Part shown: positions 8,352-33,311 of the stretch, piece after piece
How positions within the stretch are numbered: position 1 is the first letter of the stretch
Layout: every line of letters starts with the position of its first letter
NCBI GenBank assembly: GCA_016342495.1
Contig: JAEIOG010000055.1
Span: 1 to 33,724 of the forward strand
Source: Phycisphaerae bacterium
GTDB lineage: Bacteria; Planctomycetota; Phycisphaerae; Sedimentisphaerales; SM23-30
DNA: 33,724 nt
Reading direction: 5' to 3'
Position numbers and translations under genes: made by a program
The notes under the pieces: model-generated
Told to the model about the DNA's origin: nothing
The model's input: the letters and a program-made list of their open reading frames with translations, nothing else
Databases searched by the model: none

Positions 8352-8461
8352 TGGTGCTTTATCGCTTCCGTTGGGCGTTTTCATGGTATTGCTTATCAAA
8401 GGTCTTAAGCAACGCCACAATTAAAAATTATTTTAGCCGAACAAAACAATCAACAATAATC

Positions 8462-8517
8462 GGTATCGCTATTGCGATATGATTTTTATCAGCATGGGCA
8501 CAGCCCATCCTACCTGC
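8462..8517. repeat. Triple-hairpin intergenic repeat, copy A
   Basis: This 56-base element is 53/56 identical to copy B at 22216-22271. It folds as three consecutive hairpins: TATCGC/GCGATA with a 4-base loop, TGAT/ATCA with a TTTT loop, and ATGGGC/GCCCAT with a 3-base loop. It lies between trpS and scpA. The third hairpin and its flank resemble the GGGC...GCCC palindromes of REP-like elements. Confidence 0.75.
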
Positions 8518-13597: not shown

Positions 13598-13626
13598 TTG
13601 ACTTTAGTTCGCCTACGAACTATATT
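13598..13626 (+). promoter_or_regulatory. marR promoter
   Basis: TTGACT (13598-13603) is followed after exactly 17 bases by TATATT (13621-13626). The spacer is almost entirely the palindromic operator, so a bound repressor would exclude RNA polymerase. A possible TTG start at 13598 is the -35 box itself and is rejected as a gene start. Confidence 0.8.
13605..13622. promoter_or_regulatory. Operator O1, MarR-type palindrome
   Basis: TAGTTCG-CCTA-CGAACTA is a perfect 7-bp inverted repeat lying between the -35 and -10 boxes of marR. The same 16-base core recurs before the downstream hydrolase gene. This is what autorepression by the adjacent MarR protein would look like. Confidence 0.8.
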
Positions 13627-13660
13627 TATTACAGTAATACATTTTTTGGAAAACATTGTA

Positions 13661-14092
13661 ATGAACAATACAAATGGAATAATTGGACAATTTTCTCGAA
13701 TTACCGAAGCGGCGAACCTGATTATCAAAAATGAACTATCTGCTCGCAAAATTGAAGGCATTGTACCAGCCCATGGTCCAATACTGGTCTTTTTATTCGA
13801 GCAATCTGGTCCGATACCAATTAAAACTATCGTGCAAAAAATTCGACGAGTTAAATCAACCGTTACCGCAATGATAAATAATCTCGAACGTAATGGCTAT
13901 ATCAGCAAGCAACCATGCCAGAGGGACACCCGCATCATTAACGTAGAACTAACAGCCAAGGGTAATAATATCCGCAAAGATTTCTTTGAAATATCAGAAA
14001 TCCTTATTAACAAGACATATAATAATATACCTGAAAATCAACAGCAAGACCTAATGAAACAATTAAGTGTAATCGAATCAAACCTGACCTAA
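13661..14092 (+). CDS. MarR-family transcriptional regulator
   Basis: The 143-residue protein is a winged-helix DNA-binding regulator; MarR proteins act as dimers on palindromes and release DNA on ligand binding. The helix-turn-helix and wing read PIPIKTIVQKIRRVKSTVTA (about 52-71), MINNLERNGYISKQ and QRDTRIINVELTAKG, a standard MarR pattern. The ATG at 13661 is preferred over upstream alternatives, because the longer frame would begin inside the promoter. No strong Shine-Dalgarno site is seen. The operator in its own promoter and the copy before the next gene mark that gene, 52 bases downstream, as the regulated partner. The ligand is unknown; a sulfate ester or detergent is a guess from the neighbour. 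Confidence 0.88.
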   Translation: MNNTNGIIGQFSRITEAANLIIKNELSARKIEGIVPAHGPILVFLFEQSGPIPIKTIVQKIRRVKSTVTAMINNLERNGYISKQPCQRDTRIINVELTAKGNNIRKDFFEISEILINKTYNNIPENQQQDLMKQLSVIESNLT

Positions 14093-14107
14093 AAATTTTT
14101 CCACTTA

Positions 14108-14125
14108 CGGTTCGCCTACGAACTA
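14108..14125. promoter_or_regulatory. Operator O2, before the alkylsulfatase-like gene
   Basis: GTTCG-CCTA-CGAAC (14110-14123) repeats the core of O1; 16 bases (14110-14125) are identical. It lies between the marR stop and the hydrolase ribosome site, so the two genes are probably controlled together. No clear -35/-10 pair accompanies it. Confidence 0.75.
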
Positions 14126-14144: not shown

Positions 14145-15557
14145 ATGAAACTTAAAAAAACAAAAACAATCACAATCGTCTTACTGCTTTTACTGGTCAC
14201 ATTTGCTCCGGCAATAGCAGAGGACACCCCTGCAACCAAACTGCTGAAAGCCCGTACCGCTGAATTCGATACTGAGATAATAAAAGTTACTGACAATATT
14301 TATACTGCCATAGGCTATTCAGTATCAGCAGTATCTATGGTAATAGGTACCGATGGCATCATCATCATCGACACCGGAATGGACACCATCTCGGCTAAAG
14401 AAGTTCTGGCCGACTTTCGCAAAATCACCACAAAACCAGTTAAAGCCATCATCCTTACCCACTCCCATGGCGACCACACCGGAGGAATACCTGTTTTTTC
14501 AGCTGATACCAATCCACAAATCTGGGCTTGCGAAAACTTTGGCTCCGAAACTGAACCACTAGCCAAAGCCGGCCTTACAATTCAAAACAAACGCGGTGCC
14601 CGACAAGGTGGCTTCATGCTTCCCCCAGAAAAACGTATCAACAATGGTGTCGCCAAAGCATATTGGCCTAAACGAGGCGGCGATGTTTTCAAGACTGCAA
14701 AAAACCTAAAACCAACAAACACATTTAACGCTCTCCGTAAAAAAATGAATATCGCAGGAGTTAACATTGAACTTGTTGCCATTGATGGCGAAACCACCGA
14801 CGCCCTGTATGTGTGGCTGCCTGACCACAAAACTCTGTTTGCAGGAGACAATTTCTATAAATCCTGGCCTAACCTTTATGCTATCCGGGGTACCATGTAC
14901 CGGGATATTTTGGCATGGGCAGATTCCGTAGATCAAATGCTAAACGAATCGCCAGAGTTCCTCGTCCCGGGCCACACCCGACCAGTCATAGGCAAAACAA
15001 AAATCAATGATATGATGACCGACTACCGTGACGCAATCCGGTTCGTATTTGACAAGACCATCGAAGGTATGAACAAAGGCCTTACACCTAATGAACTGGT
15101 TGAATATGTCAAATTGCCTGAACGCTTTGCCAATAAAGATTATCTTCGTGAATATTATGGCAATACCCAATGGGCTGTTCGCCAGATATTCAATGCATAT
15201 CTTGGCTGGTTTGATGGCAACCCGACCAATCTCTTTCCTCTTTTACCAAAAGATGAAGCTCAACGCATTGCACAGCTGGCAGGCGGCAAAGGCAACCTGC
15301 TAAGTCAAGCCAGGCAAGCAATTCAAACTGCCGACTATCAATGGGCAGCACAACTGGCTGATTACCTTATAACACTTGAACCCGATGCCTCCGAACCAAA
15401 ACTAATCAAAGCAACAGCTCTAGAACATCTTGCAGAAAACATCCTTACCGCCACAGGCCGCAATTACTATCTTACCTGCGTTCAGGAACTTCGCAATGCC
15501 GCTGGCAAAACACAAGCTAATGATAAACAAAAAACATCCAAACAAACTCAGGAATAA
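14145..15557 (+). CDS. Secreted alkylsulfatase-like metallo-beta-lactamase-fold hydrolase
   Basis: The 470-residue protein has an N-terminal signal peptide (basic start, hydrophobic 9-20, likely cleavage near AIA-ED, 23-26), so it acts outside the cytoplasm. The metallo-hydrolase domain carries the zinc motif THSHGDH (His106, His108, Asp110, His111), a later metal Asp in LFAGDN and a late PGH. The NLYAIRG segment and the C-terminal YGNTQWAVRQIFNAYLGWFD region match the alkylsulfatase (SdsA1/BDS1) family and its dimerisation domain. It lacks the SCP2-like third domain that makes SdsA1 about 650 residues, so either that domain is dispensable or the substrate differs. GAAAGG lies eight bases before ATG. 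It is probably regulated by the adjacent MarR protein. Confidence 0.85.
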   Translation: MKLKKTKTITIVLLLLLVTFAPAIAEDTPATKLLKARTAEFDTEIIKVTDNIYTAIGYSVSAVSMVIGTDGIIIIDTGMDTISAKEVLADFRKITTKPVKAIILTHSHGDHTGGIPVFSADTNPQIWACENFGSETEPLAKAGLTIQNKRGARQGGFMLPPEKRINNGVAKAYWPKRGGDVFKTAKNLKPTNTFNALRKKMNIAGVNIELVAIDGETTDALYVWLPDHKTLFAGDNFYKSWPNLYAIRGTMYRDILAWADSVDQMLNESPEFLVPGHTRPVIGKTKINDMMTDYRDAIRFVFDKTIEGMNKGLTPNELVEYVKLPERFANKDYLREYYGNTQWAVRQIFNAYLGWFDGNPTNLFPLLPKDEAQRIAQLAGGKGNLLSQARQAIQTADYQWAAQLADYLITLEPDASEPKLIKATALEHLAENILTATGRNYYLTCVQELRNAAGKTQANDKQKTSKQTQE

Positions 15558-19451: not shown

Positions 19452-20936
19452 TTACTTTTTCCGATGTAAATCTATATATAAGCTATAAAATATCAGAATA
19501 GCCATCAATATTTTTAATAGCGAGTTAAAATGATAGCCAAAACTGACAAATATCGTACGGTCATTGTTGGGCATTATTTTAGCAACAGCAGCTACATTTT
19601 GCTCTTGAACCGGTAGATTTCCCAGCAATTTTCCATTGGGGTTTACAATTGCAGAAATACCTGAATTACTGGACCGAACCATATAGCGGCGCAATTCTAT
19701 CGCCCTGAATCTGGCGATATCAATTTGTTGAAAACGTTGAGCCGTTGGCCATGCCATCGGATTCATTACCGGCGCTAACAAAAACTCTGCCCCTTTATCT
19801 ACCAGTTGTCGGGGGATATCGGTAAAGGAACCATCATAACAAATAAAAACACCTACGTTTCCATGGGCAGTTTTGAAAACTTCTTGCCGACTTGCCGGAT
19901 TGCCATCCATGAAAAAAGGTAAAGGTACCGCTTTAGCCTGGCTGTCTATTTTGCCATCAGGATGAATTAATAATGCGGTATTGTCATAATCACAGACACC
20001 AGGATTTTCCGGATCAACATGCACACCAAGGCAAATACAAACCTCATGTTTAGTTGCCAAAGCTTGAACTTTGTTTATAAATGGATCGTCAAGACCAATC
20101 CTGTCAGAAAATAAATGTTCAGGCATAACAATAAAATCTACCCCGACATTAGCTTCGATAGTTTTAGTTATCGTATCAATCAAAAGCTCTTTATTGACTG
20201 AATCAATCTGAATAGCCGCAGCAATGAGATTATCACCTGGTTGATTTTCACTAATTGTGCTCTGGCTATACAATGCCAGTACACCAATACAGATTATTAA
20301 ACCGACCAGAACCACCAGATGTTGCAACTGACGTTTTATAATCACCAAAGCAATTGCCGCATTAACCAGAATAATCAAAAAGCTTATAAAATAAACCCCG
20401 CCAATTGAAGCAATTTGGGCGATAAAAAGATTAGCCGATTGAGAATAACCAATCGCGGCATAGGCAAATCTGATTCGCGTCAGAGTTTCAGCTCTGATAA
20501 GCTCCTGTCCAACAATTGCGACCGGCATCAGCAATAGCAGCCAACCAATACCGTATTTCCGCATAAGAGTTGAAACACAATAAAACGCAACCGCTAACAC
20601 TAAGGACCATAAAAAGAATAAGGATAAAGATATAATAGCAGTAATGCTAAATAGCCAATTCAGGCAAAAGCAATAATAGCTCATAGCCAAAACAACACCT
20701 AAAATTGCGGCATTATCGGGCCTGAGCCTGGGAAGAACCAGAATTACAGGTACAAATCCAATCCAGGCTAAATAATGAAAATAATAAGGATAGAAGCAAA
20801 GTCTCATCAGATAGCCAGTTAAGAGCCCAGCGATAAGTATAGTTAACAAAGCAGGCCAACCTGTAATGTCAACATCACTTTTAATTATCTGGCCAATAGA
20901 CATGATTTTGTACCTATTTTTTAAGTATGATAACAT
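19452..20936 (-). CDS. lnt: Apolipoprotein N-acyltransferase
   Basis: Lnt adds the third acyl chain to the N-terminal cysteine of lipoproteins in the inner membrane. The N-terminal half has about six to seven hydrophobic membrane segments (about residues 28-222). The C-terminal half is a nitrilase-type domain with the catalytic triad visible as Glu273 (VMPEHL), Lys335 (QAKAVPLPF) and Cys366 (VFICYDGS). A final hydrophobic segment (about 470-488) closes the protein. The length is typical. The start is ambiguous for an unusual reason. An exact 33-base tandem duplication gives two in-frame ATGs (20936 and 20903) with the same upstream sequence; the shorter form begins MSIGQ. It lies 17 bases downstream of argJ. 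Confidence 0.9.
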   Translation of the reverse strand: MLSYLKNRYKIMSIGQIIKSDVDITGWPALLTILIAGLLTGYLMRLCFYPYYFHYLAWIGFVPVILVLPRLRPDNAAILGVVLAMSYYCFCLNWLFSITAIISLSLFFLWSLVLAVAFYCVSTLMRKYGIGWLLLLMPVAIVGQELIRAETLTRIRFAYAAIGYSQSANLFIAQIASIGGVYFISFLIILVNAAIALVIIKRQLQHLVVLVGLIICIGVLALYSQSTISENQPGDNLIAAAIQIDSVNKELLIDTITKTIEANVGVDFIVMPEHLFSDRIGLDDPFINKVQALATKHEVCICLGVHVDPENPGVCDYDNTALLIHPDGKIDSQAKAVPLPFFMDGNPASRQEVFKTAHGNVGVFICYDGSFTDIPRQLVDKGAEFLLAPVMNPMAWPTAQRFQQIDIARFRAIELRRYMVRSSNSGISAIVNPNGKLLGNLPVQEQNVAAVAKIMPNNDRTIFVSFGYHFNSLLKILMAILIFYSLYIDLHRKK

Positions 20937-20966
20937 GATTTTGTACCTATTTTTTAAGTATGATAA
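20901..20966. repeat. Exact 33-base tandem duplication at the argJ/lnt junction
   Basis: Two identical 33-base units (20901-20933 and 20934-20966) span the end of argJ and the start of lnt. Each carries, on the minus strand, a TTAA-containing segment, an AGG ribosome-site-like triplet and an ATG. Because 33 is divisible by three, both ATGs are in frame with lnt. Confidence 0.95.
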
Positions 20967-22215: not shown

Positions 22216-22271
22216 GGTATCGCTATCGCGATGTGATTTTTATCAGCATGGGCATAGCCCATCCTACCTGC
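22216..22271. repeat. Triple-hairpin intergenic repeat, copy B
   Basis: This is the second copy of the 56-base element at 8462-8517, in the same orientation. The three differences are at positions 12 and 40 (both in hairpin loops) and at position 18 (the terminal base pair of hairpin 1), so the structure is preserved. Its last base is the first base of the argC stop codon as read on the plus strand, so it forms the whole argC 3' end. Confidence 0.75.
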
Positions 22272-30905: not shown

Positions 30906-31352
30906 GGCTCACTCAACCAGTAATATCGGTCAAAATCATACAATTACGCTTATTATTTACTTTTTTTGATCAAAAATACAAAAAAAAGGCTGTTATTCCC
31001 AATATTATAGTCAGTGCCAACGCCCCAACAATAATCCTATCCTCGTCCGGATAAAATCTGAATGCCAAGTCGCCAAACAATCAATTCCAGCAAAACAGTG
31101 TCGTTTTTTCGCAACATGTCGACACAAACATTTTAACTAAAACAATCAAAGCTTAGCTAAAATAATTTCAAGTCTAACCCAAGATTATATCTCCAAAAGT
31201 ATTGATTCACAATAACCAAACTGGTAAAATAATATCATCAGAGACCTATAAGCAAAGTATTCTTTTATTTATAAAACAAATATGCATAGCCTGCTACTAC
31301 TATGCCAACTAAGATGTGTTTATTTCTTAAACAAAGGAAAGGAAACGAGAAA
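30906..31352. other. Divergent region between metK and the PPC/dockerin gene
   Basis: About 450 AT-rich bases contain no supported gene. Promoters for the plus-strand secreted protein gene should lie in the right half, but none is clear. No riboswitch of a class I recognise was seen. The plus-strand gene has an upstream in-frame ATG (31302) that is rejected in favour of 31353. Confidence 0.4.
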
Positions 31353-33311
31353 ATGAGAAAGATTTTTTATACCCTGGCAATCTTATTTGCTACTCTGGCA
31401 GCCACAACCGTCAATGCCGCAACTGAAACTGAAGACAATAATATTCCAGCAGAAGCCAATGTCATCACAACCGATGGCACATTCTTCTCAGGGATTATTA
31501 CCGCCAGCGATGAAGACTGGTTCAAATTCACCCCGGTGGCAAACACTCTTTACCGCGTCACGCTCAATGGCGAAATCAACAAAGACTATAAAAATATGGA
31601 TATTTTCCAAATCGATGAATTTGAAAATCTTCATAAAACACTTGGCTTTTATTCCTATAGCAATAATGCAGAGGTCAGGACTTTTTTCATTGAAAAGGCC
31701 GATGATATTTATATCAAAATGTATAATTATCAGGGTGGCTACAGTTTCTATATCGAAACACTGGGAAACTTCCCAGTTGACGGGCACTCTAATGACCATG
31801 TCACAGCTTCAGCAATAACTGTCGACGCTACACCTACCAGTGCTACTTTGGACCACGATCCAGAGGGAACTGTTGATGTCGATTGGTTTGTATTTGAAAC
31901 CGAACCCCTGCATAAATATCAAATCAATCTCAAAAAAGCCGACAATACCGATGTTAATTGCCAGCTACACAATGCTGAAGGCACTTTACTTCGTGGTGGT
32001 AACAAAACTCATACCGTTACCAGTTGGTTTGGCGAACAATACAAAATCTATGTCTACGGCTATGCCCAATATCTTGGCACATATTATACCCTGGAAGTAG
32101 TCGACCTGGGCGTATTTCCTGATGATTATAACAATATTCCAGAAACCGCTACCACTATCCCGACTGATGGAACCTTTATCGAAGGTAAAATTCAATATTC
32201 CTCAGACATCGGCAGCGATGAAGACTGGTTCAAATTCACCCCAGTAGCCAACACTCTTTACCGCGTTACACTCAATGGCGAAATCTATAAAGACTACAAA
32301 AATATGGATATTTTCCAAATCGATGAATTTGATAATCTATATAAAACACTTGGTTTTTATTCCTATAGCAATGAAATACAAGTTAGAACTTTCTTTATCG
32401 AAAAAGCTGATGACCTTTACCTTAAACTATACAACTACAATGGTAATTACAGTTTTTATATAGAAGCCATCGGCAACTTCCCACCCGATAGCCACCAAGA
32501 CAATCATTCGGCGGCTTCAGCTATCACTGTCGATGCCGCACCAACTGAAGCGACACTAAACCATCGCCCCGACGGCACACTTGATGTTGACTGGTTTGTA
32601 TTTGACACCCAACCTTTGCATAAGTATCAAATCAATCTTAAAAAGGCCGACAACACCGATGTTAATTGCCAACTACACAATGCCGAAGGAACTTTACTGC
32701 GTGGCGGTAACAAAACCCATACCGTTGTCAGCTGGTTTGGCGAACAATACAAAATCTATGTTTATGGCTACCCGCAATACCTTGGCACACATTATACTCT
32801 GGAAGTAGTCGACCTGGGAGCGTTCCCAGATGACTATCCGAATACCCCAGCAACTGCTGTAAGCATCCCCAAAGATGGCACGGTGATCGAAGGTGAAATC
32901 CAATATTTAGCCGATATTAATGATGATGAAGACTGGTTCACTTTCACTGCACCGCTGGCAGGTGACTATCAATTTATGCTTAATGGAGAAGTGAACAAAG
33001 ATTATAAAAACATTAAGATTTACTGGCAGGACGAACTGGATGCCTTGAACCTGAAAAAAGAATTTTATGTTTACTCTAATGAAGTTAAAAATATTACTGT
33101 TAATTTGCCTGCAGGAACAATTTATGTCAAACTCTTTAACTATCTGGGTGGTTACTCATTCTCGGTTGTCTCACCGGAACCACGCTGTGGCGACCTGGAC
33201 CATCCATACCCAGCTGGTGATGCTAACTTTGACTGTTATGTCAACCTCGAAGACTTAGCTATCATGTCGGCCAACTGGCTCAGCTGCACTGCTCCGGAAT
33301 GTTCCGAATAG
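31353..33311 (+). CDS. Secreted protein of five PPC-like modules with C-terminal dockerin-like domain
   Basis: The start at 31353 is chosen (652 residues). AGGAAA lies eight bases upstream, and the protein then begins with a clean signal peptide, MRKIFYTLAILFATLAATTVNA. The mature protein is five beta-rich modules in A-B-A-B-A order. Each holds a D-x-DWF motif (SDEDWFKF, DVDWFVF, SDEDWFKF, DVDWFVF, DDEDWFTF), as in bacterial pre-peptidase C-terminal (PPC) domains. The first two A-B pairs are nearly identical even at DNA level; the last A is diverged. The C-terminus has one EF-hand-like loop, DANFDCYVNLED, and flanking cysteines, the dockerin-like ending seen in Phycisphaerae proteins. It has no catalytic domain, so it is probably a binding or scaffold protein. 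A terminator follows. Confidence 0.82.
   Translation: MRKIFYTLAILFATLAATTVNAATETEDNNIPAEANVITTDGTFFSGIITASDEDWFKFTPVANTLYRVTLNGEINKDYKNMDIFQIDEFENLHKTLGFYSYSNNAEVRTFFIEKADDIYIKMYNYQGGYSFYIETLGNFPVDGHSNDHVTASAITVDATPTSATLDHDPEGTVDVDWFVFETEPLHKYQINLKKADNTDVNCQLHNAEGTLLRGGNKTHTVTSWFGEQYKIYVYGYAQYLGTYYTLEVVDLGVFPDDYNNIPETATTIPTDGTFIEGKIQYSSDIGSDEDWFKFTPVANTLYRVTLNGEIYKDYKNMDIFQIDEFDNLYKTLGFYSYSNEIQVRTFFIEKADDLYLKLYNYNGNYSFYIEAIGNFPPDSHQDNHSAASAITVDAAPTEATLNHRPDGTLDVDWFVFDTQPLHKYQINLKKADNTDVNCQLHNAEGTLLRGGNKTHTVVSWFGEQYKIYVYGYPQYLGTHYTLEVVDLGAFPDDYPNTPATAVSIPKDGTVIEGEIQYLADINDDEDWFTFTAPLAGDYQFMLNGEVNKDYKNIKIYWQDELDALNLKKEFYVYSNEVKNITVNLPAGTIYVKLFNYLGGYSFSVVSPEPRCGDLDHPYPAGDANFDCYVNLEDLAIMSANWLSCTAPECSE
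31431..32831. repeat. Tandem A-B repeat of about 700 bases inside the PPC/dockerin gene
   Basis: The A-B unit starting at 31431 recurs at 32124 (693 bases later), and a third A begins near 32832. Long stretches, such as the run encoding KYQINLKKADNTDVNCQLHN, are the same in both B modules. This suggests recent duplication or gene conversion. Confidence 0.85.

Follow-up and report, generated by a model that had tools for sequence, protein, structure and literature searches.

The 33,724-nucleotide stretch of DNA analysed here (the window) carries a gene for a MarR-family regulator with a palindrome on either side of it, one (O1) inside the marR promoter and one (O2) before the next gene. We consider it quite probable that this is a local autoregulated switch, in which a MarR dimer would sit on both O1 and O2 until some small ligand releases it, and marR and the cargo gene behind O2 would come on together. 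As the earlier note had proposed, this MarR very probably has the palindrome as its operator. The position suits autorepression, and every readable ortholog retains both sites in this arrangement; the operator reading is strongly supported by comparison of the orthologous loci.

The marR promoter and the two palindromes

The locus contains the following features:

13598..13626, + strand: marR promoter (-35 TTGACT 13598-13603, 17-bp spacer 13604-13620, -10 TATATT 13621-13626)
13605..13622, strandless: putative operator O1, TAGTTCG-CCTA-CGAACTA, inside the marR promoter spacer
13661..14092, + strand: marR, MarR-family winged-helix regulator, 143 aa (Pfam MarR E 7e-10)
14108..14125, strandless: putative operator O2, CGGTTCG-CCTA-CGAACTA
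14145..15557, + strand: predicted secreted metallo-beta-lactamase (MBL)-fold hydrolase with an alkylsulfatase dimerisation domain, 470 aa, the putative target

The pair TTGACT/TATATT is the best-scoring promoter-like site within 2.5 kb around marR (10 of 12), and the marR reading frame listed from 13598 is merely an upstream TTG extension. O1 is a perfect 7+4+7 palindrome at 13605-13622 which leaves free only the first base of the spacer and extends two bases into the -10, confirming the earlier claim that a palindrome fills the spacer of this promoter. The recurrence of a 16-base core before the neighbour was likewise found as claimed: the 16-mer GTTCGCCTACGAACTA is identical in both sites (13607-13622 and 14110-14125), while the left flank is CG at O2 versus TA at O1, and the core of O2 lies 18 bp 3' of the marR stop and about 20 bp 5' of the MBL start. 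Inverted repeats with 7-bp arms and a 4-bp centre occur five times in the window against 2.6 expected from Markov copies, and a single palindrome of this kind is by itself not rare. The repeated 16-mer is expected 0.05 times per Markov copy of the window and is improbable by chance. Promoter elements at O2 are weak (-10 2.8/6; -35 3.3/6 at 19-bp spacing). In nearly all orthologs (e.g., L101, L107 and L098), the marR stop is followed by a T-run whose end is roughly 9-12 bp 5' of O2.

In the mechanism that we propose, a MarR dimer would bind the palindrome T-R-GTTCG-N4-CGAAC-Y-A. Since O1 overlies the spacer and the first bases of the -10, a dimer bound there would keep RNA polymerase off the marR promoter, which suggests steric autorepression. 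At O2, the dimer would hold down the next gene, and because the promoter elements there are weak it may do so by covering a weak overlapping promoter, by blocking read-through from marR, or both. A small ligand would then free the dimer, switching on both marR and the cargo gene at once.

Pattern searches over 5,418,934 bases found exact GTTCG-N4-CGAAC at two sites in the 5.4-Mb genome, both at the marR locus, so that the palindrome is not the common, randomly placed element which the earlier note had weighed against its own reading. With one mismatch there were 45 sites in total (150 for the control pattern), and the other 43, on inspection, lay nearly all within long coding frames and offered no convincing target; the longer TAGTTCG-N4-CGAACTA with two mismatches gave six sites, two of which are O1 and O2. 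The best-scoring extra sites (L123 and L128) have scores equal to or below those of the weakest true sites; L123 was rejected as a further target, its site being in an RHS-type coding end, and L128, about 220 bp upstream of a gene for a secreted protein, is an unlikely one. The expectation that the operator would reveal more targets was therefore disappointed in this whole-genome scan with one- and two-mismatch patterns, and, as exact sites occur only here and one-mismatch sites are nearly all coding, the regulon of this MarR appears local in the window genome.

Elsewhere in the window, two intergenic spaces (8461-8516 and 22216-22271) share a repeat some 56 bp long (GGTATCGCTATYGCGAT.TGATTTTTATCAGCATGGGCA.AGCCCATCCTACCTGC). 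When up to 2 mismatches are allowed, its 28-bp core is present 80 times in the genome and the reversed control not once: a REP/MITE-like family. An ORF of 669 aa (31302-33311) without a Pfam match contains repeats at intervals of about 708 bp (near 31505, 32213 and 32925), and a tandem direct duplication with 33-bp spacing is found at 20900-20966, at the start of an apolipoprotein N-acyltransferase-like ORF (19452-20936). There was no Rfam match in the window.

Conservation of the regulator and its probable operators in Sedimentisphaerales

A profile search over 161 genomes of the order Sedimentisphaerales (Planctomycetota) found the MarR in 20 genomes of several families, and those orthologs that were aligned to the window protein are 45-58% identical to it; an earlier contig scan with a single protein as query had returned no relative. 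No close ortholog was found outside the order in a sample of 392 genomes of the phylum, and the tree of the MarR orthologs is poorly resolved. O1 is present in the marR promoter of all 20 orthologs (the exact 10-base core in 19), where the aligned promoters read TTGACa-N17-TATAaT (mean 5.3/6 and 4.4/6). O2 lies 17-23 bp past the marR stop in 19/19 readable orthologs, the remaining contig ending, and in L096 it was recovered only by a looser look. The consensus of 38 sites is T-R-GTTCG-Y-V-B-R-CGAAC-Y-A, in which the invariance of the inner TTCG/CGAA columns is overstated because the site search fixed those bases. Across the orthologs, the arms are near-invariant and the 4-bp centre is variable; at the G033 locus, for example, where the MarR is 59% identical, palindromes on both sides of marR have the centres TGCA and AGGG, and at the L056 locus the centres are ATAT and ACGC.

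As an independent check, TTGAC-N4-GTTCG-N4-CGAACTA was searched with one mismatch in all 161 genomes, with no use of marR as a guide. This promoter-operator signature occurs at marR in 18 of the 20 marR-carrying genomes, and it misses G502 (one extra base between the -35 and the core) and G491 (an outer-arm change). Only three matches were found elsewhere (in G480 and G022, and a second one in G033), inside a coding sequence which is endonuclease V-like, a family assigned from the protein sequence and not by a profile.

Three other readings of the paired palindromes were weighed against binding of a dimer at each site. That they are RNA hairpins, acting as a terminator or attenuator, is suggested by the form of each one (a perfect stem with a 4-nt loop), by a terminator-like call that falls on O1, and by read-through from marR, which would transcribe O2. 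We regard this as highly unlikely: O1, between the -35 and -10, is outside what the marR promoter transcribes, the T-run at O2 comes before the stem and not after it, and the arm sequence is kept in all genomes apart from a few deviations (L105, L106, L096) that are one-sided and never compensatory. The lack of compensatory changes, together with an O1 untranscribed from its promoter, favours a protein operator over an RNA or cruciform structure. It is also improbable that only O1 is functional and O2 a decoy or relic of duplication, even though O2 is without a strong promoter and the two sites in the window share even their centre, as they would after a recent copy or conversion; O2 is kept in all 19 readable orthologs with different centres and before different genes, which calls for selection. 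A DNA loop, in which marR would be bridged by dimers bound at the two sites some 500 bp from each other, could draw on the spacing of 498-528 bp in all measured orthologs, but this distance tracks how long marR is, and the helical phase is not preserved (47.4 to 50.3 turns). As MarR proteins bind as dimers and a tetramer is without evidence, we give looping little credence. The preferred reading stays that of a protein operator at both O1 and O2.

The gene behind O2 and the question of alkyl sulfates

The protein encoded behind O2 in the window has the two domains expected of a type III alkylsulfatase (PF00753, 76 bits, and PF14863, 154 bits) and HxHxDH at residues 106-111, and its best solved relative is YjcS (phmmer E 5e-59). 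The MBL fold, HxHxDH and the dimerisation domain are shared with SdsA1, SdsAP, Pisa1 and YjcS. However, type III alkylsulfatases have about 630-670 aa against 470 aa here, and the window protein ends after the dimerisation domain, with no match to the SCP-2 domain. Both this domain and the zinc ligands Glu303 and Glu322 of SdsAP are described in PMC5426288. Of these two signature glutamates, 19 residues apart, the window protein keeps one (E216, aligned with Glu303) and has an aspartate, D235, at the position of Glu322. The label "alkylsulfatase" is therefore not justified on these alignments, while that of an MBL-fold hydrolase of the alkylsulfatase-like group is.

The first gene past O2 is not the same throughout the order. 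It is an MBL in 3/19 readable orthologs (the window, L056/G511 and L112/G427), a PNPOx-like flavoprotein in eight genomes, with a remnant in G426, and a cupin in four, one of them truncated. DUF3795 is first in G465 and G033, in the latter followed by an MBL, and in G469 a PQQ-type protein comes before the PNPOx. Differences are present even within a genus (PNPOx and MBL in g290, PNPOx and cupin in g324). Since nitroreductase and PQQ-type genes recur farther downstream of marR, the cargo differences could equally well stem from replacement or from differential loss out of a longer ancestral operon. In G033 (L035 5473-8631), a DDE_3 (IS630-type) element has inserted into the DUF3795 gene behind O2 and split it, a further copy of this element lies upstream of marR, and the MBL after DUF3795 is frame-broken, so that decay affects the cargo but has left marR and both operators intact. 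From the loci compared, it is the controlled gene that looks exchangeable, against a regulator and two operators that look constant. To go one step further, and tentatively, the locus might be a regulatory socket, in which MarR with fixed O1 and O2 is kept across the order, the cargo is repeatedly replaced, even within a genus, and O2 serves as a ready-made operator or roadblock; we hold this to be possible, with the balance somewhat against it.

These findings bear on the proposal, made in the earlier note, that alkyl sulfates are the signal which frees MarR and turns on the hydrolase. The alkylsulfatase dimerisation domain of the window neighbour speaks for such a regulon, and so does the presence of this MarR in each of the five genomes of the order that have a close MBL, although the associated figure of 1.8e-5 is only indicative given the relatedness of the genomes. 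Against it, no MBL is found behind the operator in 15/19 readable orthologs, two alkylsulfatase features are missing from the window protein (SCP-2 and one of the zinc-ligand glutamates, PMC5426288), and no operator was found near the MBL copies that G426 has elsewhere, the sequence before one copy being partly N. In the phylum, 17/392 genomes have MBL orthologs at E<=1e-40, including the window's own and G033, and no exact operator was found near the orthologs of the remaining genomes among those 17. A cargo gene that changes between MBL, DUF3795, PNPOx-like and cupin lends no support to alkyl sulfates as the inducer, which we consider unlikely. What stands of the self-contained regulon of the earlier note is the MarR, its two putative operators and a local layout kept in orthologs; the MBL as its defining target, first behind O2 in only 3/19, does not. 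With a constant switch and differing cargo, the signal of the proposed autoregulated switch is probably general, for example xenobiotic or redox, rather than alkyl sulfates.

Relation to known MarR regulators and significance

The regulator belongs to the MarR domain family, with a winged-helix domain flanked by dimerisation helices (PF01047, 39.1 bits against a cut-off of 24.6), and its predicted structure (pLDDT 85) has as best PDB matches the MarR-family proteins MexR, MepR and SarZ. Among the named NCBIfam MarR equivalogs (BilQ, FabT, OhrR, HpaR, SlyA and the rSAM-pair regulator), the best score was 48.6 bits against 240, below the curated cut-off. The recognition-helix region R-x-KSTVT is near-invariant among the orthologs. 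A redox-thiol mechanism through Cys86 of the wing was considered and rejected; this residue is Ser in many orthologs, and because it is not conserved, a conserved thiol switch there is unlikely.

The best fold match of the window model is MexR of Pseudomonas aeruginosa (Foldseek E 9.8e-08), which binds two palindromic sites, PI and PII, with inverted GTTGA half sites that overlap the promoters of mexR and its target (PMC9892617). PII reads TTTTAGTTGA-CCTTA-TCAAC (PMC9892617), close to the window operator TTTAGTTCG-CCTA-CGAAC, and the published PII oligonucleotide contains TTTTAGTTGACCTTATCAAC (PMC9892617), which strikingly resembles TTTAGTTCGCCTACGAAC of the window. Unlike these sites, with GTTGA and a 5-bp centre, the window has the half site GTTCG and a 4-bp centre, the two proteins are only 18% identical, and mexR controls an efflux operon whereas the window marR runs toward co-directional, non-efflux cargo. 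Autorepression with repression of a small neighbouring unit has been described as the ancestral MarR pattern (PMC6401476). SlyA/RovA and the classical MarR autorepressors would share this pattern with the window system as we reconstruct it. Their operator sequence differs from that of the window, whose neighbour is no efflux pump and which gives no sign of a large regulon. The window system is a probable autoregulated MarR with two putative operators, of a kind already known and close to MexR in fold and operator.

In the literature searched, which was of limited reach, we came across no account of a Planctomycetota MarR operator, and nothing on this operator or on a MarR-alkylsulfatase pair. 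The system is of an ordinary kind; its footprint is unusually clean, and the change of cargo behind a constant switch is notable. The exact operator consensus makes the reading testable with one protein and short DNA. Additionally, the inducer of a MarR should, with due caution, not be read off the nearest neighbour in a single genome. Across about 20 loci of the order, a constant regulator and operator are paired with differing controlled genes, and this natural series lets one ask how a one-input switch gains new output genes.
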